DNA from: Sandaracinaceae bacterium
GTDB taxonomy: Bacteria > Myxococcota_A > Polyangia > Polyangiales > Sandaracinaceae
Assembly (NCBI GenBank): GCA_019637095.1
Contig: JAHBWG010000038.1
Span: 1 to 64,000 of the forward strand
DNA: 64,000 nucleotides
Direction: 5' to 3'
The translations under genes and the position numbers were made by a program. The notes under the pieces are model-generated. The model saw only the letters and a list, made by a program, of their open reading frames with translations, had not been told where the DNA came from and searched no databases. Of the stretch, positions 967 through 12,374 are shown in pieces. How positions within the stretch are numbered: position 1 is the first letter of the stretch; the number at the start of each line of letters is the position of its first letter.

Positions 967-3362
967 GCGGCGCCTCGCCTCCGGACCCGCGCCGCGCACT
1001 TCTTGTAGTCGGGCTGCTTGGAGAACGGATCGTACTCGTGCAGCGTCAGCGCGTTGACGAGCAGGCGCTCGTCGAAGAACGGGATGAACACCGTGCCCTC
1101 CGGCGGCCGGCCCCGCCCGTCGATCCAGATCGGGATCTCCATCTGCCCGCGCCGCGTCTCGACGATCACCGTCTCGCCGTTGGCGACGCCGAGCCGCGCC
1201 GCGTCCGCGCGGTGCATCTCGCAGTACGCCTGCGGCATCGCGCGACGCAGCGGCGCGATGCGCATCGTCATGGACCCCGAGTGCCAGTGCTCGAGCACGC
1301 GCCCGGTGCAGAGCCAGAGCGGGTACTCCGCGTCCGGCACCTCGGGCGGCGGCTCGTAGGGGTGGAAGAAGACTTGCGCGCGGTCGTCGCTCGTCGTCGA
1401 GTGGTAGAACTGCACGCCCTTGCCCGCCTCGACGTACGGGTCCTCGCCCTCGACGAAGCGGAAGCGCGTCTCGCGCCACGAGCCGTCGGGCTGCTCGACC
1501 ACCGGCCAGCGCAGCCCGCGCGCGCGCACGTACTCCTGATAGGGCGCGATGTCCTTGTGCTTGAAGCGGGTGAACGCGCGGTACTCCTCGAAGAGCCGCT
1601 CGTCGACGTTCACGTCGTAGTAGCGGCTCCACTGCCAGATCGGCACCTCGCGGCCCTGCGCGTCCTCGGTGTGGAAGAGGAAGCGCCCGTCGCGATCGCG
1701 CATGCCCTCGTGGCCGAGCTCGAGCAGGCGATGGGCGACCGCGATCGTCTGCCAGCAGTCGTCGCGCGCCTCGCCCGGCGGATCGACCATCTTGAACCAC
1801 TGCTGCGTGCGCCGCTCGGAGTTGCCGTAGACGCCGTTCTTCTCCACCCAGAGCGCGGACGGAAGGATCAGGTCCGCGGCGCGCGTCGTCTCCGTCGGGT
1901 ACACGTCGCTCACGATCAGGAACTTGTCCTCGAGCGCGCGCGCGCGGCGGAAGTACTCGTTCTGGTTGGGCATCGTCTGCCCGGGGTTCGTGACCTGCAC
2001 CCAGATCGTGTCGATGTCGCCGCCCTCCGACCTCGGGAGGTTGAAGCGCCGGAACATCTCGACGGTGTGGTAGCCGATCTCGCCGCGGATCCGGCCCTCG
2101 GGCACGTTCCAGAGCTGCTCGGCGTCCGCGCGATGCGCGGGGTTGGTCACTACGCGGCCGCCCGGCAGGGTGTGGCAGAGCGTGCCGACCTCGCGGACGG
2201 TGCCGCACGCGGACGGCTGCCCGGTGAGGCTCGTCGGCGCGTCGCCCGCGCGTCCGAAGTGGCCGCTCAGGAGGTGCAGGCCGTGGATGAGCGTGTTGAC
2301 CGCGGTGCCGCGCGTGTGCTGGTTCGCGCCCATGCACCAGAGGCTCGTGATGCGCAGGTCCCGGTTGCCGAAGAGCTCGGCGAGCATCCGGATCTGCGCG
2401 GCCGGGACGCCCGACAGCGCCTCGACGTGCTCCGGCGTGTACGGCTCGAGCCGGCGCCGGTACTCCTCGAAGTCGATCGCCTCGCCCTGGAGCGTCGGGT
2501 TCTCGGCCTGGAGCGCGCGGAACGCGCAGTGCGCCTCGACGAACTCGCGGTGGTACGTGCCCTCTCGCACCAACAGGTGCGCGACGCCGAGCGCGATCGC
2601 GAGATCGCCGTGCGGGCGCATCTCGAGGTAGTGCTGGCAGTGCTCGGTGGAGCGCGTGCGCCGCGTCCCGATGTCGATCAGCACGACCTGCTCGCCGCGC
2701 GCGCGCCGATCGATCACGCGCGAGAAGAGGATCGGGTGCATCTCCGCCGGGTTGTTCCCCCAGAAGATCAGCACGTCGCACTGGTCGAGGTCGTCGTAGC
2801 AGCCCGCCGGCTCGTCGACGCCGTAGGTCGCGAGGAACCCGGTGACCGCGGACGCCATGCAGAGGCGCGCGTTCGCCTCGAGGTGGTTCGTGCCGAGCCC
2901 CGCCTTGACCAGCTTGCTCGCGGCGAAGCCCTCGGGGACGGTCGACTGCCCGGAGATGTAGAAGCCGAAGCGCGACGGGTCGCGGTGGATCCGGCGCGCG
3001 ACGATGTCGATCGCCTCGTCCCACGAGATCGGCTCGTGGCGATCGCCCCGGCGCAACAGCGGCTGCGTGAGCCGATCCGTCCCGTAGAGCGCGAGGCCGA
3101 CGTGGTAGCCCTTCACGCAGAGCAGACCGCGGTTCACCTCGGCCATCGCGTCGCCCTGGATCGAGACGACCCGGCCGCGCTCGACGCCGACCTGCACGTG
3201 GCAGCCGGTGCCGCAGAACCGGCACGGCGCCTTCTGGAACGCGACGCCGTCGGCGGTGCGCGGGGCGGGGCGAGCCGGCGGCTGTCCGACCGCGTCCCGC
3301 GCGCCGATCGCGGCGGTCGCCGCGGCCATCGCCATCCCCTTGATCACGTCTCGTCGCTGCAT
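963..3362 (-). CDS. napA: Periplasmic nitrate reductase catalytic subunit NapA
   Basis: Reduces nitrate to nitrite in the periplasm using Mo-bis-MGD and one [4Fe-4S] cluster. The protein is 799 aa, slightly shorter than the roughly 830 aa of proteobacterial NapA. It opens with a twin-arginine signal (MQRRDVIKGM followed by an Ala-rich stretch). The cluster ligands are C47, C50, C54 and C82 (CRFCGTGC...CVKG). Lys84 just after the last cysteine matches the electron-transfer lysine of the family. C168 in NARLCMASAV is the molybdenum ligand, which identifies a NapA/Nas-type enzyme. The ATG at 3360-3362 is chosen because the Tat motif follows directly. The reading frame stays open upstream, but that stretch belongs to napD in another frame. 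The 5' end overlaps napD by 19 bases. Confidence 0.95.
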   Translation of the reverse strand: MQRRDVIKGMAMAAATAAIGARDAVGQPPARPAPRTADGVAFQKAPCRFCGTGCHVQVGVERGRVVSIQGDAMAEVNRGLLCVKGYHVGLALYGTDRLTQPLLRRGDRHEPISWDEAIDIVARRIHRDPSRFGFYISGQSTVPEGFAASKLVKAGLGTNHLEANARLCMASAVTGFLATYGVDEPAGCYDDLDQCDVLIFWGNNPAEMHPILFSRVIDRRARGEQVVLIDIGTRRTRSTEHCQHYLEMRPHGDLAIALGVAHLLVREGTYHREFVEAHCAFRALQAENPTLQGEAIDFEEYRRRLEPYTPEHVEALSGVPAAQIRMLAELFGNRDLRITSLWCMGANQHTRGTAVNTLIHGLHLLSGHFGRAGDAPTSLTGQPSACGTVREVGTLCHTLPGGRVVTNPAHRADAEQLWNVPEGRIRGEIGYHTVEMFRRFNLPRSEGGDIDTIWVQVTNPGQTMPNQNEYFRRARALEDKFLIVSDVYPTETTRAADLILPSALWVEKNGVYGNSERRTQQWFKMVDPPGEARDDCWQTIAVAHRLLELGHEGMRDRDGRFLFHTEDAQGREVPIWQWSRYYDVNVDERLFEEYRAFTRFKHKDIAPYQEYVRARGLRWPVVEQPDGSWRETRFRFVEGEDPYVEAGKGVQFYHSTTSDDRAQVFFHPYEPPPEVPDAEYPLWLCTGRVLEHWHSGSMTMRIAPLRRAMPQAYCEMHRADAARLGVANGETVIVETRRGQMEIPIWIDGRGRPPEGTVFIPFFDERLLVNALTLHEYDPFSKQPDYKKCAARVRRRGAA

Positions 3363-3640
3363 GGCCTCCCTCGGAGTCGGCGGGGCACCGTGCCCTCGAT
3401 CTCGGGCACGTCGGAGAAGTCGTGGAACACCACGAAGAGCTGGCTCACGCCCTCGGTCGCCTCGAGCGCCGCGAAGAGCGCGGCGTCCTCGGCGGCCGCC
3501 GTGGTCTCGGTGACGAGCGCCACGCGGCCCCCTTCGCGCGGGCCGACGGTGACCCGCGCGTCGGCGCCGAGGCGCGCGATCGTCTCCGGCCACCCCGAAG
3601 GGTCGCCGCGGAGGTGCGCTACGAGTCCGGTGACAGGCAT
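3344..3640 (-). CDS. napD: NapD, Tat-signal chaperone for NapA
   Basis: Small cytoplasmic protein of 98 aa. The NapD family binds the twin-arginine signal peptide of NapA and holds back export until the cofactor is inserted. The sequence starts MPVTGLVAHLRG and has the ferredoxin-fold pattern of the family, with the motif VSQLFVVFHD near residue 70 where NapD proteins show a G-x-x-x-x-L-V-Y-H-like strand. It is the first gene of the leftward nap operon, its 3' end overlaps napA by 19 bases, and it diverges from the cytochrome operon 78 bases away. Confidence 0.85.
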   Translation of the reverse strand: MPVTGLVAHLRGDPSGWPETIARLGADARVTVGPREGGRVALVTETTAAAEDAALFAALEATEGVSQLFVVFHDFSDVPEIEGTVPRRLRGRPCSDET

Positions 3641-3694
3641 GGTCGCGTGTGTATGTGCACCCCGACGAACGGCTCGCTACCTCCCGAGAGCTGC

Positions 3695-3700
3695 TACTCT
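3695..3700 (+). promoter_or_regulatory. Possible -10 element (TACTCT) of the rightward cytochrome operon
   Basis: A TAnnnT hexamer lies 18 bases before the ATG at 3719, in the 78-base gap between divergent napD and the cytochrome lipoprotein gene. No convincing -35 or FNR/NarL-type inverted repeat was found in the gap, so the control of this locus cannot be read from the sequence. Confidence 0.3.
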
Positions 3701-3718
3701 CCGCGACCGACGCACGAG

Positions 3719-4330
3719 ATGCCCCGACCGTACCGCAGCACGCACGCGCGCACTACGCCGATCCTGCTCGCCCTGCTCGCAGGCTGCGGGAGCGACGTGG
3801 AGCGCCCACTCGCCGACCCGCCGGGCGAGCCCACGGGGCAGGTGCGGATCTCGGCGCCGGCGTGGCTCGACTCGCTCGCCACGGAGGTCACGGGGACGGA
3901 CGGAACGCCGCTGCGCCTGCGATGCGAGTCGTGTCACGCGCTCTCGCCGTCCGGCGCGGCGCTCCCCGCGAGCGCGGAGGAGGCTGGCGCACCACACACG
4001 GGGCTCGAGGTCGAGCACGGCACCCTCGCCTGCGCTTCGTGCCACGACTCGGAGCGCCCGGACCGGCTGCGCCTCGCGAGCGGGCACGTCGCGCCGATGC
4101 GCGAGGCGATGCTCCTCTGCGCCCAGTGCCACGGGACGCAGCACCGCGACTACCAGCACGGCGCGCACGGCGGCATGCAAGGATACTGGGATCTCTCGCG
4201 CGGCGATCGCGTCAGGAACCACTGCGTGGAGTGCCACGCACCGCACCGCCCCGCGTACCCGCGGCTTCGCCCTCTGCCGCCACCGCACGATCGCTTCCCA
4301 CCCGTACGACACGAGGGCGACCATGGCTGA
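3719..4330 (+). CDS. Tetraheme cytochrome c lipoprotein
   Basis: Predicted periplasmic, lipid-anchored electron carrier, 203 aa. The signal peptide ends in a lipobox with C23 (LLALLAGC). Four CxxCH motifs lie at residues 69-73, 105-109, 134-138 and 169-173, with many free histidines between them that could serve as distal ligands (VEHG, SGHV, QHGAH). The ATG at 3719 is chosen because the lipoprotein signal follows at once; the frame is open upstream without a signal. The stop overlaps the start of the ferredoxin gene (ATGGCTGA), so the three genes 3719-6552 form one operon. It probably links the NrfCD-type quinol oxidase to NapB/NapA. I do not recognise a named family beyond a NapC/NrfH-unrelated multiheme class. 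Confidence 0.8.
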   Translation: MPRPYRSTHARTTPILLALLAGCGSDVERPLADPPGEPTGQVRISAPAWLDSLATEVTGTDGTPLRLRCESCHALSPSGAALPASAEEAGAPHTGLEVEHGTLACASCHDSERPDRLRLASGHVAPMREAMLLCAQCHGTQHRDYQHGAHGGMQGYWDLSRGDRVRNHCVECHAPHRPAYPRLRPLPPPHDRFPPVRHEGDHG

Positions 4331-5264
4331 GGAGCCGACCGATCCCACGAGCGAGCCGGCGAAGGAGGGCTTCGATCGGCGCACCGCGCTGAAGGTGGGT
4401 GGCGCGACCCTCGGCGCCGCCGCCTTCGCCCGCGCGCTCGCCCCGCTCACCGAGTGGACCGAGGACCTCTCCGTCGACGGGTTCCTGCAGAAGCACTACA
4501 AGGAGCTGACCCCCGAAGAGCTCTCCGCGGTCCTGCGACGCCACGAGGCCGAGACCGAGCGCCGCTACGGGCGCGAGGTGACGATCCGCGATCTGCGCCC
4601 GCAGGAGGGCGTGTCGTTCGGGTACGCCCTCAACCTCTCGGTGTGCATCGGGTGCCGTCGCTGCGCCGAGGCGTGTCACATCGAAAACAACCACGACCGC
4701 CGCACGCAGACCTCCTACATCCGCGTGCTCGAGATGACGCAGGGCAGCTTCGACATGGAGCACGGCACCGCCGTCTACGACCACGAGGCCGTCCCCGCGC
4801 CCGGCAAGTACTACATGCCCGTGCAATGCCAGCAGTGCGACAACCCGCCCTGCGTGCACGTCTGCCCGGTGGAGGCCACCTGGAAGGAGGAGGACGGCAT
4901 CGTCGTCGTCGACTACGACTGGTGCATCGGGTGTCGCTACTGCGAAGCGGCGTGCCCCTACCACGCGCGCCGCTTCAACTGGGAGCGCCCCGTCGTCCCG
5001 GCCGAGGAGATCAACCCGAACCAGTCGTACCTCTCGAACCGGATCCGGCCTCAAGGGGTGATGGAGAAGTGCCACTTCTGCCTGCACCGCACCCGCGAGG
5101 GGCGCGCCCCGGCGTGCTTGGAGGCCTGCCCCACCGGCGCACGCGTCTTCGGCAACCTCCTCGATCCGAACAGCGACATCCGTTGGGTCCTCGAGAACAA
5201 GCGCGTCTTCGTCCTCAAGGAGGATCTCGGGACGCGCCCGCGGTTCTTCTACTACTTCGGGTGA
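4323..5264 (+). CDS. Tat-exported four-cluster ferredoxin subunit (NrfC/PsrB/HybA type)
   Basis: Iron-sulfur electron-transfer subunit, 313 aa, expected on the periplasmic face next to the NrfD-type subunit. A twin-arginine motif (FDRRTALKVG) at residues 17-26 is followed by an Ala-rich h-region. Four ferredoxin cysteine groups follow in the usual order of the family: CIGCRRCAEAC, CQQCDNPPCVHVCP, CIGCRYCEAACP and CHFC...CLEACP. The family passes electrons between a quinol-oxidising membrane subunit and a periplasmic oxidoreductase. Here the partners would be the membrane protein at 5269 and the tetraheme lipoprotein just upstream, whose stop codon this gene overlaps. Confidence 0.88.
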   Translation: MAEEPTDPTSEPAKEGFDRRTALKVGGATLGAAAFARALAPLTEWTEDLSVDGFLQKHYKELTPEELSAVLRRHEAETERRYGREVTIRDLRPQEGVSFGYALNLSVCIGCRRCAEACHIENNHDRRTQTSYIRVLEMTQGSFDMEHGTAVYDHEAVPAPGKYYMPVQCQQCDNPPCVHVCPVEATWKEEDGIVVVDYDWCIGCRYCEAACPYHARRFNWERPVVPAEEINPNQSYLSNRIRPQGVMEKCHFCLHRTREGRAPACLEACPTGARVFGNLLDPNSDIRWVLENKRVFVLKEDLGTRPRFFYYFG

Positions 5265-5268
5265 GACC

Positions 5269-6552
5269 ATGAGCGCCCGCGACCACGCCATCAGCTACCC
5301 GAAGTTCCTCTGGCGCGCCGTCTCGATGGCGACGGACGGGAGCTGGCTCTTCTACACGTGGATGCTCGTGCTCACCGCCATCGCCCTCGTCGGCGCGAAC
5401 GCGTGGGCGCAGCAGACCGTCGACGGGATGGCGCTCACGAGCATGAGCGATCACGTCTCGTGGGGTCTCTACATCGCGAACTTCACGTTCGCGGTCGGCC
5501 TCGCCGCCGGCGGCGTGATGATGGTCATCCCCGCCTACCTCTACCGCGACGAGCGGATGCACGACGTCGTCATCGTCGGTGAGCTGCTCGCGATCGCGGC
5601 GCTGGTCATGGCGCTCTTGTTCGTCGTGGTGGACCTCGGGCGCCCGGATCGCTTCTGGCACCTGATGCCGTTCATCGGCCGGTTCCATTGGCCGATCTCC
5701 ATGCTCACGTGGGACGTCATCGTCCTCAACGGCTACCTGCTCATCAACGCACACATCTGCGGTTACCTGCTCTACACGAGGTTCATCGGCAAGAAGCCGG
5801 ACCCGCGTTGGTACATCCCGTTCGTCATGGTCTCGATCGTGTGGGCCATCTCGGTGCACACGGTGACCGCGTTCCTCTACAGCGGCCTCGGCGGCCGACC
5901 GTTCTGGAACAGCGCGCTGCTCGCCCCGCGGTTCCTCGTCACCGCGTTCATCACGGGCCCGGCGTTCATCGTCCTGACGCTCAGGTTCATGCGCGGCGCG
6001 ACCCGCTTCGCGGTGCCGAGCGGCCCCGTCGCGACGCTCGTCGGCGTCATGCGCGTGACCGTGATCGTGAACCTCTTCATGCTCGGCGCCGAGCTCTTCA
6101 CGGAGCTCTACTCGGGCGGCAGCCACGCGGCGGCCGCCGAGTACCTGTGGTTCGGCCTGCACGGCGCGAACGCGCTGGTGCCGTGGACCTGGGCCGCGCT
6201 CCTCTTCAACGTCGCGGCCGCGGTGATCCTGCTCACCCCGGCGCTCGCGCGCCGCTACTGGGTGCTCAACGCCGCGTGCGTCCTGGCCTTCGCGGGCGTG
6301 TGGATCGAGAAGGGCATGGGGCTGATCATCCCGGGCTTCATCCCGAGCACGCTGCACGAGATCGTCGAGTACGTGCCGAGCACCACCGAGTGGCGCATCA
6401 CCGCCGGGATCTGGGCGTTCGGCCTCATGGTCTACACGGTGCTCATGAAGGTCGCGCTGCCCATCGTGGCCGGCGAGGAGCGGCTCGACCGGCGCGGCGC
6501 GCCCGCGAAGCCCACGGCGCCCGCGCCGGCGGCGCGCGACGAAGAAGAGTAG
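5269..6552 (+). CDS. NrfD/PsrC-family quinol-oxidising membrane subunit
   Basis: Integral membrane protein of 427 aa with eight to ten hydrophobic segments, starting around residues 20-45 and ending near residue 405, with a short Pro/Ala-rich cytoplasmic tail. The segment near residues 60-90 ([19 protein letters not shown]) and the [11 protein letters not shown] loop match the NrfD/PsrC/HmcC family, which oxidises menaquinol and hands electrons to a ferredoxin partner. It begins 4 bases after the ferredoxin gene. No napC or napH is seen, so this module is the natural candidate for feeding NapAB. Confidence 0.88.
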
Positions 6553-6574: not shown

Positions 6575-6609
6575 GACGGCGCCGCGCGGGTCGGGCATCG
6601 GTGTCCCTC

Positions 6610-6625
6610 ATCGAAGCGCTTCGAT
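6610..6625. promoter_or_regulatory. 16-base perfect palindrome before the parA ribosome binding site, candidate operator
   Basis: ATCGAAGCGCTTCGAT is a perfect inverted repeat that ends one base before an AAGGGAGG ribosome binding site (6626-6633) of the zinc-finger ParA gene. The operon also encodes a ribbon-helix-helix-like protein, and such proteins typically bind short palindromes as dimers of dimers and repress their own operon. Binding here is an inference. Confidence 0.55.
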
Positions 6626-6638
6626 AAGGGAGGACGCC

Positions 6639-7718
6639 TTGCGAGCCGATCAGTTCGCGTGCAGCGCGTGCGCACGCACCTTCAAAGTGCAGTTCCGTTA
6701 TCAGGTCCGCGAAGAGGCGGGCCGCTTCGTCTACTTCTGCTCGCAGGCGTGCCTCCAGCACGGCCTCGAGCAGCCGGTGTGCACGGTCTGCGGGACGGGC
6801 TTCGAGCTCGAGTACCCCTACCAGTGCCAGGTCGGCGACGCGGAGCCGATCTACTACTGCACGCCGCAGTGCCGCGAGGCCGCGCGGGCGGGGGTCTACC
6901 GGACCGGCAAGGCCGGCGGGCGCGCCGCCGACGGGCCGCGCCGCATCGCGGTCTTCAACCACAAGGGCGGCACCGGCAAGACGACCACCGCGGTGAACCT
7001 CGCCGCCGGCCTCGCGGAGCGCGGGATGCGCGTGCTGCTCGTCGACGCCGACGGTCAAGGCAACGTCGGCGCCTCGCTCGGCATCCGCGGCGAGCGCACC
7101 CTCTACCACGTGCTCGTGCAGGGGCTCTCGAGCGAGGAGTGCGCGGTCCCCGTCCGCTCCGGGCTCGACGTCCTGACGAGCAACGAGATGCTCGCCGCCG
7201 CCGAGCTCTACCTCGCGGAGCGGCCCAACCGCGATCGCATCCTGCGCGAGCGGCTCGGGGGCCGGACGACCGGCTACGACGTCGTCGTGCTCGACTGCGC
7301 GCCCGCGCTGTCGCTGATGAACCAGAACGCCCTCGTCTACGCGGACAGCGTGCTGGTGCCCGTCTCGTGCGACTACCTCTCGCTCATCGGCGTCCGGCAG
7401 GTGCTGCGCACGCTCAAGAGCGTGCACGCGCTCCTCAAGCACGACGTGCGTCTGCTCGGTGTGCTGCCGACGTTCTTCGACGTGCGCAACAACATCGCGC
7501 GCGAAGCCCTCGGTGCCCTGACCGAGCACTTCGGCGACCGCTGCCTCTCGCCCATCCGCGTGAACACGCGGCTGCGCGAGGCGCCGAGCGCCAAGAAGAC
7601 GATCTTCGAGTACGCCCCGACCTCGCACGGGGCGCTCGACTACACGGCGCTCGTCGATCGGATCGTGCGGCTGCGCGGAGACGCGGCGCCGGTGCGCGAG
7701 ACGGCGCTGGCCGGGTGA
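6639..7718 (+). CDS. ParA/MinD-family ATPase with two N-terminal zinc fingers
   Basis: 359 aa. The TTG start at 6639 is supported by an AAGGGAGG ribosome binding site ending 5 bases upstream and by the zinc finger that begins at once. Residues 8-38 and 48-78 each carry C-x2-C-x22-C-x3-C with identical spacing, a tandem pair of treble-clef or TRASH-like zinc sites. The ATPase follows from about residue 102, with the deviant Walker A KGGTGKTT (signature lysine K109), DADGQGN (switch I region) and a [10 protein letters not shown] Walker B region. ParA ATPases position DNA or protein cargo with a DNA-binding or activating partner; the partner here is probably the small protein at 7729. No parB or parS is visible, so this is not the main chromosome-partition operon. 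It could be a dedicated cargo-positioning system. Confidence 0.85.
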
Positions 7719-7728
7719 GGAGGAGCCG

Positions 7729-8040
7729 ATGGGAGCGAAGGACGAGGGGGTGAGCGCGCTGTTCGATCGGGACGAGGTGCGCGAGGTGCTCGAGGGCGCG
7801 TTCTACAAGCCGGGCCCGGCGGCGGCCCGCGAGCGCTCGTCCCCCCGGCGGCGCGCGAGCGCGAAGGACGACCTGCCCTACGAGGTGATCTGCATCAGCC
7901 TCTACAAGGAGGACCTGCGCCGCCTCGACGAGAAGGTGAAGCTCCTCAAGGCGCGCGGGCACCGCAAGATGAGCCGCAGCGCCCTGATCCGCTACGCGCT
8001 CGACACCGCGAACCTCGACGACCTCCCGAAGGCCTACTGA
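7729..8040 (+). CDS. Small ribbon-helix-helix-like protein, probable ParA partner
   Basis: 103 aa, starting 10 bases after parA with GGAGGAG just before the ATG. The N-terminal half is charged and probably flexible. The C-terminal 50 residues (YEVICISLYKEDLRRLDEK, then KMSRSALIRYALDTANL) have the strand-helix-helix layout of a ribbon-helix-helix DNA-binding domain: a short strand, a helix rich in charged residues, then S-R-S-A-L-I-R-x-A. ParA plus a small RHH protein recalls the type Ib ParA/ParG and ParF/ParG pairs. It may bind the 6610-6625 palindrome. The fold is called by eye. Confidence 0.7.
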   Translation: MGAKDEGVSALFDRDEVREVLEGAFYKPGPAAARERSSPRRRASAKDDLPYEVICISLYKEDLRRLDEKVKLLKARGHRKMSRSALIRYALDTANLDDLPKAY

Positions 8041-8628: not shown

Positions 8629-11600
8629 TCAGGCGACCGCGGCCTCCTCGATCGGCGCCGCCACCTTGCGCTCCGACGCGCGCAGCTCCACCGCGACGAG
8701 GTTCGAGACGCCCGGCTCGCTCATCGTGACGCCGTAGAGCACGTCCGCGAGCTGCATCGTCCGCTTGCTGTGCGTGATGACGATGAACTGCGAGTGCTTC
8801 GTCATCGCGCGGATCGCCTCGGCGAACCGATCGATGTTCGCCTCGTCGAGCGGCGCGTCGACCTCGTCGAGCAAGCAGAACGGGCTCGGCCGGTGCTGGA
8901 AGATCGAGAAGATCAGGCTGACCGCGGTGAGCGCCTTCTCGCCGCCGCTCATCAGCTCGATGGAGCCGATGCGCTTGCCCGGCGGCTGCGCGATGATGTC
9001 GACGCCGGTCTCGAGCATGTCCTCGGGGTTGGTCAGCCGCAGCTCCGCGCGCCCGCCGCCGAAGAGGCGCGGGAACACCTGCTGGAAGCGCGAGTTCACC
9101 GCGTCGAACGTCTCGCGGAACATGCGCCGGCTCTCCTTGTTCATCTGCCGGATCGCCTTGTCGAGCTGGCCGAGCGCCGTCTCGAGGTCCCCGCGCTGAT
9201 GCGTGAGGTACTCGTAGCGCTTGCTCTTCTCCTCGTACTCCTCGATCGCGGTGAGGTTGATCTCCCCCATCCGCCGCACGAGCGCGAGCAGCTCGTCGAT
9301 GCGCGCGCGCACCTGCGCGTCCGGCAGCTCGCGGTAGTGGTAGTCGCCGATGATCTTCGTCAGGTCGACGTCGTGCCGCTCGTCGGTGGTCGTCAAGAGG
9401 TACTCGAGGTCCTTCGCGAGCTCGCGCTCGCGCAGCGTGAGCGCGCCGAGCTCCTTGTCGCCCGCCTCGATGGCGCGGCGCAGCGTGCCGAGCGACTGCT
9501 CTCGCTCCCCGAGCTGGACCTTGGCCTCCTCGTAGCGCGCGCGCACCGCGCCGAGCTCCTCGTGCGCGACCATCGCCCTGGCCACCGTCTCGTGCAGCTC
9601 CTCGCGCCCGAGCATCGCGTGCGCCGCCGCCTCTCCCTGCTGCTGCGCGGCGGTCCGCATGTCGCCCTCGAGCCGCGCCTCGCGCTCGGCGAGCTCGGCC
9701 ACCGAGCGCGCGAGCCGCTCGAGCGCGCCGCGGTCGCTCTGCGCGCGCTGCTTGGCCTCGGCCGCGCGCACCTTCACGGTCGTGACGACCAGCGCCTGCT
9801 CCTCGGCCGCGCGGCGGCGGTGGCCGAGGATCTCCTCGCCCGCCGCGAGCGCCTCGGACGCGTCGCGGTCGGCGGTGCGCGCCGCCTCGATCTCCTCGGT
9901 CGCCGCCCGCTCCTCGTCGTGCGCCGACGAGAGCTGCGCCCCGAGCTGGTCCGCCTCGGCGCCGAGCTGCTCGGCGCGCCGCTGCGCGCGCTCGAGCCCC
10001 TCCTCGGCGCGGCGCAGATCCTTGTCCGTCTTGACGATCGCGATCTCCGCGTCGTGCGCCTCGGTGCGCGCCGCGTCGAGGGCGGCACGCCGCTGCGCGA
10101 TCCCCGTGCGGAGCTCGCCGTGGCGCGCGATGGCCTCGTGGAGCGACTCGTCGAGCCGCCCGACCACGCCGTGGAGCGCGCGCATCTCGCGCTTGATCTC
10201 GATGAGGTGGGCGCCGACGCCGGCGCCGCGCCCCGCGCGCACGCTGCCGTCGCGCTCGACGACGACGCCGTCGAGCGTGACCATCCGCGCGTCCACCCCG
10301 CGATCGCGGAGCGCGCGCGCGATCTCGCGGTCCCGGACCACGAGCACCCCGTCGAGCAGGTGCCGCACGAGGCCGGCGTCGGCGGGCGCGTGCTCGACGC
10401 GATCGGCGAGCCAGCCGATCACGCCGTCGCCCTCGGGCAGCGCCGGGAGCGGGCGCACCACGCGCCGCGGCGACTGTGGGATCAGCGTCGCGCGGCCGCG
10501 CGCCGCGCCGCCGCCCTCGAGGAACTCGACCGCGGCGAGCGCCGCCGCGCGATCCCGCACGACGACGTTCTCGAGGACGTCCTCGAGCGCCGCGGCGAGC
10601 ACCGGGGTGAGCTCGACCGGGCAGTCGATGCGATCGGCGACGAGCCCGAGCACCCCCTCGTCGAGGCGCGCCGCCTCGTCGGGCGCGTAGTCGCGCATCA
10701 GCGCGCGGGCGCCGTCACCGACGCCCTCGAAGCGCTGCTGGATCTCCTCGAGCGAGCGCAAGCGCGAGCGGCGCTGGGAGAGCTCCTCGCGCAGCTTCTC
10801 GACGCGCACCTCGCTCTCGCGGATGGCCTCGCGGAGCTGGACGAGCTCGGCCTCGAGCTCCTCGCGCCGCTGCGCGGTGCCCTCCTTGCCGCTCTTGAGC
10901 CCGTGCAGGCGCGCGCGCAGCTCCTCGCCCTCCTGGGCGAGCTCGACGGCCTTCTGCGCGTGCTCCTCACGCTCGGCGGCGAGCCGCTCGAGCCGCTGCC
11001 GACCCTCCGCGCGACGCCGCGCGAACCCGTCGAGCACCGCCTCGGCGCGCGCGATGCGCGCGCGGGCCTCGCCGTGACGCGCCCGCGCGCCGACGACGAC
11101 CGCCTCCGCCTCCTTCGCGGCCTCGCGGCGCCGCCCGAGCTCGAGGTCCTCGCGCGCGAGGACCTCCGACTCCTTCGCCTCGATCTCTTCGAGGTCCGCG
11201 AGCGAGCGCTCGAGGTGCGCGCGCTCGCCGGCGAGGCGCTCGCGCTGCGTCACGAGCGCGGAGAGCTCGCGCTCCGCCGTGCGCTCGGACTCTCGCAGGC
11301 TCTCGAGCCGGCCGAGGTGGCCCTCGATGCGCCCCTCGATCATGCGCACGCCGTTGTCGAGCTCGTACGCGATGCGCTGCGCGCGCTCGACCGCGTGCTC
11401 GTGCGTCTGCACCTCGAGGCGCTCCGCGCCGAGCTCGGCCTCGCGCACCCGCATCGCGAGGCGCTGGCCCTCGACCTCGGCCCCGACGCGCGAGAGCGAG
11501 CCCGAGAGCACGCGGCGCGTGACGGTCAGCTCCATCCAGCGGTGCGAGGCGACGAGCAGCTCGAGGTCGCGGATCTCGTGGCGGTAGGTGCGGTAGCGCT

Positions 11601-12246
11601 CGGCCTTCTGCGCCTGCCGCTTGAGCGTCGCGAGGCTCCGCTCGATCTCCGTGACGATGTCGCCGACGCGCAGGAGGTTCTGCCGCGTCTGGTCCATCTT
11701 GCGCTCGGCGGCCTTCTTCTTGGCCTTGAACTTCGTGATCCCCGCGGCCTCCTCGATGAGGTGGCGGCGATCCTCGGGCTTGGCCGAGACGATGAAGCCG
11801 ATGCGCCCCTGCTCGATGATCGAGTAGGCCTTCGTGCCGACGCCGGTGCCGAGGAAGAGGTTGGTCACGTCGCGCAGGCGGACCTGCGCGCGGTTGATGA
11901 GGTACTCGCTCGCCCCGCTGCGATCGAGGCGGCGCGTCACCTCGATCTCCGGGTAGGCGGCGAGCTCGGGCGGGCTGAGCCCGTCGTCGTTGGAGAAGGT
12001 CAGCGTGACCTCCGCGAACCCGTTCGGCCCGCGCGTCTCGGAGCCCGCGAAGATCACGTCCTCCATGTTCTTGCCGCGCAGGTGCCGCGCCGACTGCTCG
12101 CCCATCGCCCAGCGGATCGCGTCGACGATGTTCGACTTGCCGCACCCGTTCGGCCCGACGACCGCCGTGACGTCGTGATCGATGTGGATGACCGCGCGGT
12201 CCACGAACGACTTGAAGCCGCAGACCTCGACCTTCTTGATCTTCAT
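8629..12246 (-). CDS. smc: Chromosome segregation ATPase SMC
   Basis: 1205 aa, the usual length for bacterial SMC. The N-terminal ATPase half has Walker A GPNGCGKSN near residue 35. Two long coiled coils flank a hinge at about residues 520-640 (GVLGLVADRIDCP...). The C-terminal half has the ABC signature ELMSGGEKALTAVSL and Walker B CLLDEVDAPLDEAN. SMC dimers with ScpA/ScpB organise and segregate the chromosome. The ATG at 12246 is chosen because MKIKKVEVCGFKSF is the conserved start; a GGTGGGA ribosome binding site precedes it. scpA and scpB are not in the window. The 224 bases upstream are non-coding and hold a palindrome and a repeated GGCGATCGCC. Confidence 0.97.
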   Translation of the reverse strand: MKIKKVEVCGFKSFVDRAVIHIDHDVTAVVGPNGCGKSNIVDAIRWAMGEQSARHLRGKNMEDVIFAGSETRGPNGFAEVTLTFSNDDGLSPPELAAYPEIEVTRRLDRSGASEYLINRAQVRLRDVTNLFLGTGVGTKAYSIIEQGRIGFIVSAKPEDRRHLIEEAAGITKFKAKKKAAERKMDQTRQNLLRVGDIVTEIERSLATLKRQAQKAERYRTYRHEIRDLELLVASHRWMELTVTRRVLSGSLSRVGAEVEGQRLAMRVREAELGAERLEVQTHEHAVERAQRIAYELDNGVRMIEGRIEGHLGRLESLRESERTAERELSALVTQRERLAGERAHLERSLADLEEIEAKESEVLAREDLELGRRREAAKEAEAVVVGARARHGEARARIARAEAVLDGFARRRAEGRQRLERLAAEREEHAQKAVELAQEGEELRARLHGLKSGKEGTAQRREELEAELVQLREAIRESEVRVEKLREELSQRRSRLRSLEEIQQRFEGVGDGARALMRDYAPDEAARLDEGVLGLVADRIDCPVELTPVLAAALEDVLENVVVRDRAAALAAVEFLEGGGAARGRATLIPQSPRRVVRPLPALPEGDGVIGWLADRVEHAPADAGLVRHLLDGVLVVRDREIARALRDRGVDARMVTLDGVVVERDGSVRAGRGAGVGAHLIEIKREMRALHGVVGRLDESLHEAIARHGELRTGIAQRRAALDAARTEAHDAEIAIVKTDKDLRRAEEGLERAQRRAEQLGAEADQLGAQLSSAHDEERAATEEIEAARTADRDASEALAAGEEILGHRRRAAEEQALVVTTVKVRAAEAKQRAQSDRGALERLARSVAELAEREARLEGDMRTAAQQQGEAAAHAMLGREELHETVARAMVAHEELGAVRARYEEAKVQLGEREQSLGTLRRAIEAGDKELGALTLRERELAKDLEYLLTTTDERHDVDLTKIIGDYHYRELPDAQVRARIDELLALVRRMGEINLTAIEEYEEKSKRYEYLTHQRGDLETALGQLDKAIRQMNKESRRMFRETFDAVNSRFQQVFPRLFGGGRAELRLTNPEDMLETGVDIIAQPPGKRIGSIELMSGGEKALTAVSLIFSIFQHRPSPFCLLDEVDAPLDEANIDRFAEAIRAMTKHSQFIVITHSKRTMQLADVLYGVTMSEPGVSNLVAVELRASERKVAAPIEEAAVA

Positions 12247-12374
12247 TTGGATCCCACCATCGCCCCTCAGCGAGACGAGCAAACCGCGGCGCGCCCGAAC
12301 CTTGCGAGTATCACCGTGGATCGTGGAGCGCAACGGACATCGCGAGCAATGGTGGGTGCCACCCTGTGACCACC

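Follow-up and report, generated by a model that had tools for sequence, protein, structure and literature searches.

Chromosomes, plasmids, carboxysomes, chemoreceptors and division sites are all placed in the cell by motors of the ParA type, and for many ParA proteins encoded on chromosomes the cargo is not known. In a Sandaracinaceae bacterium (GCA_019637095.1, contig JAHBWG010000038.1), a parA gene whose product begins with two zinc fingers is followed closely by a small gene, and the locus raises the question of what kind of ParA system these parts form. We analysed positions 1-64,000 of the forward strand of this contig, a stretch of 64,000 nt called the window below. The initial annotation had described a parA gene with two C-x2-C-x22-C-x3-C units, a small gene 10 nt downstream and a perfect palindrome, and had proposed that they form a self-regulated positioning unit separate from parABS. 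All three parts were confirmed in the sequence, and none of the outcomes named there as refuting, fingers missing from close homologues, no RHH fold or an unconserved palindrome, was obtained. The two genes and their domains are as follows.

6626..6633, + strand: parA ribosome binding site, with the Shine-Dalgarno sequence AAGGGAGG, read from the sequence
6639..7718, + strand: parA, encoding a ParA-type ATPase of 359 aa with two zinc fingers at its N-terminus; start codon TTG at 6639, stop codon at 7716-7718
6660..6752, + strand: zinc finger 1 (Cys 8, 11, 34 and 38), MYM/FCS type
6780..6872, + strand: zinc finger 2 (Cys 48, 51, 74 and 78), present in every ParA aligned
6939..7670, + strand: Soj-like ATPase domain, residues 101-344, with the KGGTGKTT Walker A motif, D138, D219, R283 and R307
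7729..8040, + strand: RHH partner of 103 aa, starting 10 nt after the ParA stop; N-terminal helix with DxDEVxxVLxxxFY, basic linker and C-terminal RHH (strand ~51-59, helices 60-75 and 83-93)

The deviant Walker ATPase is complete, and Pfam matched it to AAA_31 at an E value of 3.8e-48. Among solved structures, Thermus thermophilus Soj matched best (E 1.4e-51; structurally aligned, the two are 46% identical), so that the ATPase lies nearer to chromosomal Soj than to ParF (2.1e-07); the matches to McdA (3.6e-11) and to the SegA chain 7dut (2.4e-07) were weak. An AF2 model of ParA (mean pLDDT 89.5; ~81-95 in the finger region) superposed on Soj (Foldseek E 2.8e-26). The Walker A lysines, including the signature Lys, the catalytic D138 and the Walker B aspartate were invariant in 44/44 aligned family members, and D138 aligned with the residue that is altered in the Soj entry 2bek. 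R283 was retained in 42 of these 44 proteins, and position 311 was R or K in 41; both align with Soj arginines that we take to be nonspecific DNA-binding residues. Judged from its sequence, the fingered ParA is a Soj-class ATPase with all motor residues and the predicted equivalents of the Soj DNA-binding arginines.

This likeness to Soj-Spo0J (ParABS) is confined to the ATPase domain, in sequence and model; the partner here is an RHH protein, and there is no adjacent ParB/Spo0J gene. A Soj-ParB pair of the genome's own lies elsewhere, on contig C90. Furthermore, in a tree of ATPase domains built with the fingers left out, 39 fingered ParA proteins fell on one side of a branch (support 100/99) and 21 further ParA proteins from the same order, canonical Soj included, on the opposite side. 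By this phylogeny, the fingered ParA forms a single old clade apart from the canonical Soj proteins of the order, and the placement of the unit outside parABS was borne out.

Both fingers have the spacing C-x2-C-x22-C-x3-C and lie within the first 90 residues of ParA. They were present in 41/41 same-order orthologues, with a nearly constant x22 spacer and highly variable linkers. The eight finger cysteines were retained wherever finger 1 exists, with a single Cys-to-His exception, and only the second finger was found in lineages f35, f13, f14 and f15. In some f12 genomes (L086 and L094), fingers and ATPase are joined through a long proline/alanine-rich linker (~100 or more residues). The zf-FCS (MYM-type) model matched 19 of 21 ParA N-termini at E <= 0.05 (best 1e-08); the finger region of the window's own protein reached 0.00045 in the finger-model search, just short of the curated cut-off, and TRASH models were among the weak Pfam matches to ParA N-termini. 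A six-frame genome search with PF06467 did not find the window's fingers, so this model is too weak for surveys. On these profile matches, the fingers are of the MYM/FCS type. The pattern of MYM/FCS fingers, C-x2-C-x(about 20)-C-x3-C with an FCS motif, occurs here twice in tandem, as a fusion with a ParA ATPase. We know of no finger-type docking module in other ParA proteins, and SegA, to our knowledge, has no zinc fingers.

The small downstream gene encodes an RHH protein, as the initial annotation had expected from its sequence. The window's protein alone matched RHH_1 weakly (E 0.94), and 24 of 66 relatives matched this model, with a best E value of 1.8e-04. In the predicted structure, a strand region without a pairing strand precedes helices 60-75 and 83-93, which is what a single chain of an RHH dimer should look like. 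A Foldseek search with the monomer model was weak (E about 5); its top six matches include TraM, Reg576 and ParD2, which we take to be RHH proteins. S57, Y59, G77, S84, R88 and A90 were invariant in the aligned partners. In ParF-ParG, the N-terminal tail of the partner supplies an arginine finger; the tail here contained no invariant Arg or Lys in the alignment, its conserved features being the N-terminal helix and the basic linker only.

We then consider how far the two genes travel together. Searched for in other myxobacteria, the finger-ParA fusion was conserved and the RHH partner tightly linked to it. Among 57 same-order genomes, 45 had both genes and 12 had neither, so that the pair co-occurs or is jointly missing. 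In a wider sample of Myxococcota, the fingered ParA occurred in 94 of 284 genomes, about a third, always in single copy. The RHH protein was found in 50 of 237 genomes, all 50 of which also carry the fingered ParA; it adjoins parA in all of them save G030, whose two genes each lie at the end of a contig, and no partner without a fingered ParA was found anywhere in the phylum sample. The linkage that had been claimed for ParA and the RHH protein thus stands, but the pair is not the widest unit: this is the fingered ParA itself, because some lineages keep it without a detectable partner. No RHH protein was detectable in the searched genomes of lineages f27 (presumably Bradymonadia-like), f43, f46, f53 and f29, where the fingered ParA stands alone. 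At L215-L220 of f27, a conserved protein of ~460-520 aa with a membrane-like N-terminus is encoded after the fingered ParA, in place of the RHH gene. In f48, the gene downstream of parA encodes a long tail and then a diverged RHH-like C-terminus. A long N-terminal tail with a diverged RHH-like C-terminus was also seen in the downstream gene at L232 (246 aa) and L247, possibly an extended form of the partner.

The arrangement resembles ParF-ParG, the type Ib system of plasmid TP228, in having a ParA, a small RHH protein with an N-terminal tail (flexible in ParG) and, before the ATPase gene, an operator in ParF-ParG and an operator-like box here. ParF, however, is plasmid-borne and without zinc fingers, whereas the unit described here is chromosomal, fingered and an old single clade. 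Gene order and partner fold are the same as in type Ib partition cassettes, as they would be in a remnant of an integrated ParF-ParG-type cassette; nonetheless, this origin is disfavoured and highly improbable, given a ParA that is single copy, is 41-78% identical across several classes of the phylum, forms one clade in the ATPase tree and was absent from the 72,556 plasmid and 50,697 phage records searched.

Upstream of parA, the palindrome noted at the outset proved to be the core of a wider, conserved, operator-like box.

6607..6628, + strand: operator-like box CTC-ATCG-AAG-CG-CTT-CGAT-AAG, with 11/12 fixed positions of CTTN4AAGYRCTTN4AAG, overlapping the parA ribosome binding site
6610-6625: perfect 16-nt palindrome ATCGAAGCGCTTCGAT, core of the box

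Within 3 mismatches, ATCGAAGCGCTTCGAT occurs only once in the window. The window has 13 other palindromes of >= 16 nt, and by length alone this one is unremarkable; it rises above chance because it is conserved upstream of parA. Of 41 orthologues, 18 have the motif AAGYRCTT in the 150 nt before parA, where 0.7 would be expected. Once aligned, the sites show the longer pattern CTTN4AAGYRCTTN4AAG, which is palindromic with a 12-bp period, and in some genomes AAGYRCTT occurs twice, at a distance of 12 bp. In a held-out test, each lineage (groups at 72% ParA identity) was scored by a matrix from the other lineages and compared with random segments of the same locus. At p <= 0.01, the box was detected in 15 of 31 groups with the partner and in 0 of 13 without (Fisher P = 0.0013); the P values of this test are approximate, since the groups are partly related and the motif was first noticed in the same loci. 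Two cases, L170 with a truncated, rearranged ParA and G030 at a contig end, were set aside after the table was seen; counted as partner-less, they change the contrast to 15/31 versus 2/15. L170 lies on a MAG chromosome in which the fingered ParA is cut at residue 284 and joined to an unrelated coding sequence, with the box intact; the truncation is probably a misassembly. Lineages outside the class (L214, L225, L226 and L245) also have the box, and about half of the lineages with a partner, many Polyangiaceae among them, had no detectable box before parA.

Thus, the box tracks the partner across lineages. The partner probably binds it, and self-regulation by the RHH protein would be the natural reading of this co-occurrence, as the initial annotation had supposed. 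A sigma-70 scan gave no operon promoter; by eye, a TTGAC-like element recurs upstream of the operon.

Sites of the box elsewhere in the chromosome would point to other roles. Over 15 genomes, pattern counts of dispersed sites equalled those of the reversed control, a comparison that a degenerate motif could escape, and on these genome-wide counts we rejected a dispersed centromere or a regulon built from the box. The apparent excess in one genome, G025, was discarded; it includes a full-consensus site inside an isocitrate dehydrogenase-like ORF (named by eye). With no genome-wide excess, the box looks like an operator.

This distribution bears on a comparison with SegA-SegB of the Sulfolobales, a chromosomal ParA with an RHH protein and with palindromic sites immediately before its operon (PMC12284271). 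Both systems are chromosomal ParA-RHH pairs with palindromic sites upstream. They differ in that SegB binds about 46-49 chromosomal sites, whereas the box has no genome-wide excess; in addition, the RHH-partner profile gave no SegB match in a PDB search. The unit belongs among the ParA-RHH systems as a previously undescribed variant, and on present evidence it is not a new category; the family was not described in the literature searched (open-licence papers).

An operator at the operon start would also suit a regulatory switch, in which ParA modulates an RHH repressor, as FleN does FleQ, the fingers serve as a metal or redox sensor, and control is exerted on the operon itself and possibly on a few other genes. 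The box overlaps the operon start region, and the finger class includes metal-sensing domains of the TRASH type, but the motor residues and predicted DNA-binding arginines are all retained, the lack of box excess elsewhere in the 15 genomes speaks against a regulon, and no metal-homeostasis genes were seen beside the unit in the contexts examined. We therefore consider such a switch unlikely.

The genes around the unit offered a further line of evidence.

1038-6552, + strand: upstream region encoding a 1408-aa protein with a DsrO-like (4Fe-4S) C-terminus and then a DsrP/NrfD-like membrane protein
8629-12333, - strand: smc (SMC_N 2.8e-67, hinge 1.1e-15), downstream of and convergent with the ParA-RHH pair

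The first 1190 residues of the 1408-aa protein had no Pfam match, and the membrane protein scored above the DsrP cut-off. The longest perfect palindrome in the window, of 24 nt (GAGGTCCTCGCGCGCGAGGACCTC, 11143-11166), lies inside the smc gene. In ten same-order genomes of four families, topoisomerase IV genes (parC-parE, named by eye) precede the operon; at L075, L077, L079, L082, L089, L097 and others they adjoin the fingered parA or lie a short distance before it, and at L075 the end of the parE match is 81 nt from the start of parA. This topoisomerase IV and smc context is suggestive of chromosome biology. Nonetheless, smc was beside the fingered parA only in the window's genome and in none of the other genomes read, and other lineages have urocanase/imidazolonepropionase-like (histidine-degradation) or guaB-like neighbours; the neighbourhood therefore does not decide function, and a role read from it was given little weight.

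The neighbours are also where a cargo might be sought. PomZ and McdA are chromosomal ParA proteins outside ParABS that position protein cargo, and the fingered ParA is likewise chromosomal and outside ParABS, with a cargo that may be a protein. Unlike these systems, it had no PomX, PomY or McdB-like neighbour noted in the contexts examined. Positioning of a protein cargo, with fingers that choose a protein complex as McdA does carboxysomes or PomZ the division site and an RHH protein that only represses the operon, would account for the fingers being the addition that the family keeps most constantly, for the several lineages with a fingered ParA and no RHH protein, and for a box that occurs at the operon only, with no dispersed sites. 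However, no conserved protein-coding neighbour fit to be the cargo was found in the contexts examined, and the RHH protein was never found without ParA whereas ParA occurs without it; this asymmetry and the conserved N-terminal motif suggest that the RHH protein does more than autoregulation. We regard this explanation as rather doubtful.

The explanation that we favour, and to which we give about an even chance, is a ParA-RHH unit of two chromosomal genes with the organisation of ParFG or archaeal SegAB; it probably represses its own expression, and its fingers would dock a cargo or a regulator. The sequences establish the components, the linkage of the two genes and the co-occurrence of box and partner, whereas positioning, the cargo and the role of the fingers are inferred. 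The RHH dimer would bind the box and repress the operon. Its N-terminal tail may contact the ATP-bound, nucleoid-bound ParA dimer and stimulate hydrolysis, as does that of ParG, which reportedly activates the ParF ATPase (Barilla 2007, cited in PMC9178275), and the resulting ParA gradient would position what the unit holds, be it box-bearing DNA or a protein that the fingers grip. Where a lineage has no RHH protein, the fingers or another protein would have to provide the link. A bolder proposal, that these proteins are a separate chromosomal ParA class in Myxococcota in which tandem MYM/FCS fingers, not a ParB-type adaptor, dock the cargo, and in which the RHH protein acts as adaptor and autorepressor but is dispensable, Bradymonadia-like lineages lacking it or having a replacement, is possible and is put forward tentatively.

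Altogether, the fingered ParA is old, single copy and present in about a third of the Myxococcota sample, and it has a partner already in place and a DNA box of defined sequence. It occurs in the named species Sorangium cellulosum and Minicystis rosea and in Polyangium, so that deletion and imaging are feasible. If the favoured explanation is true, the unit would give the SegAB architecture of archaea a counterpart in bacteria.
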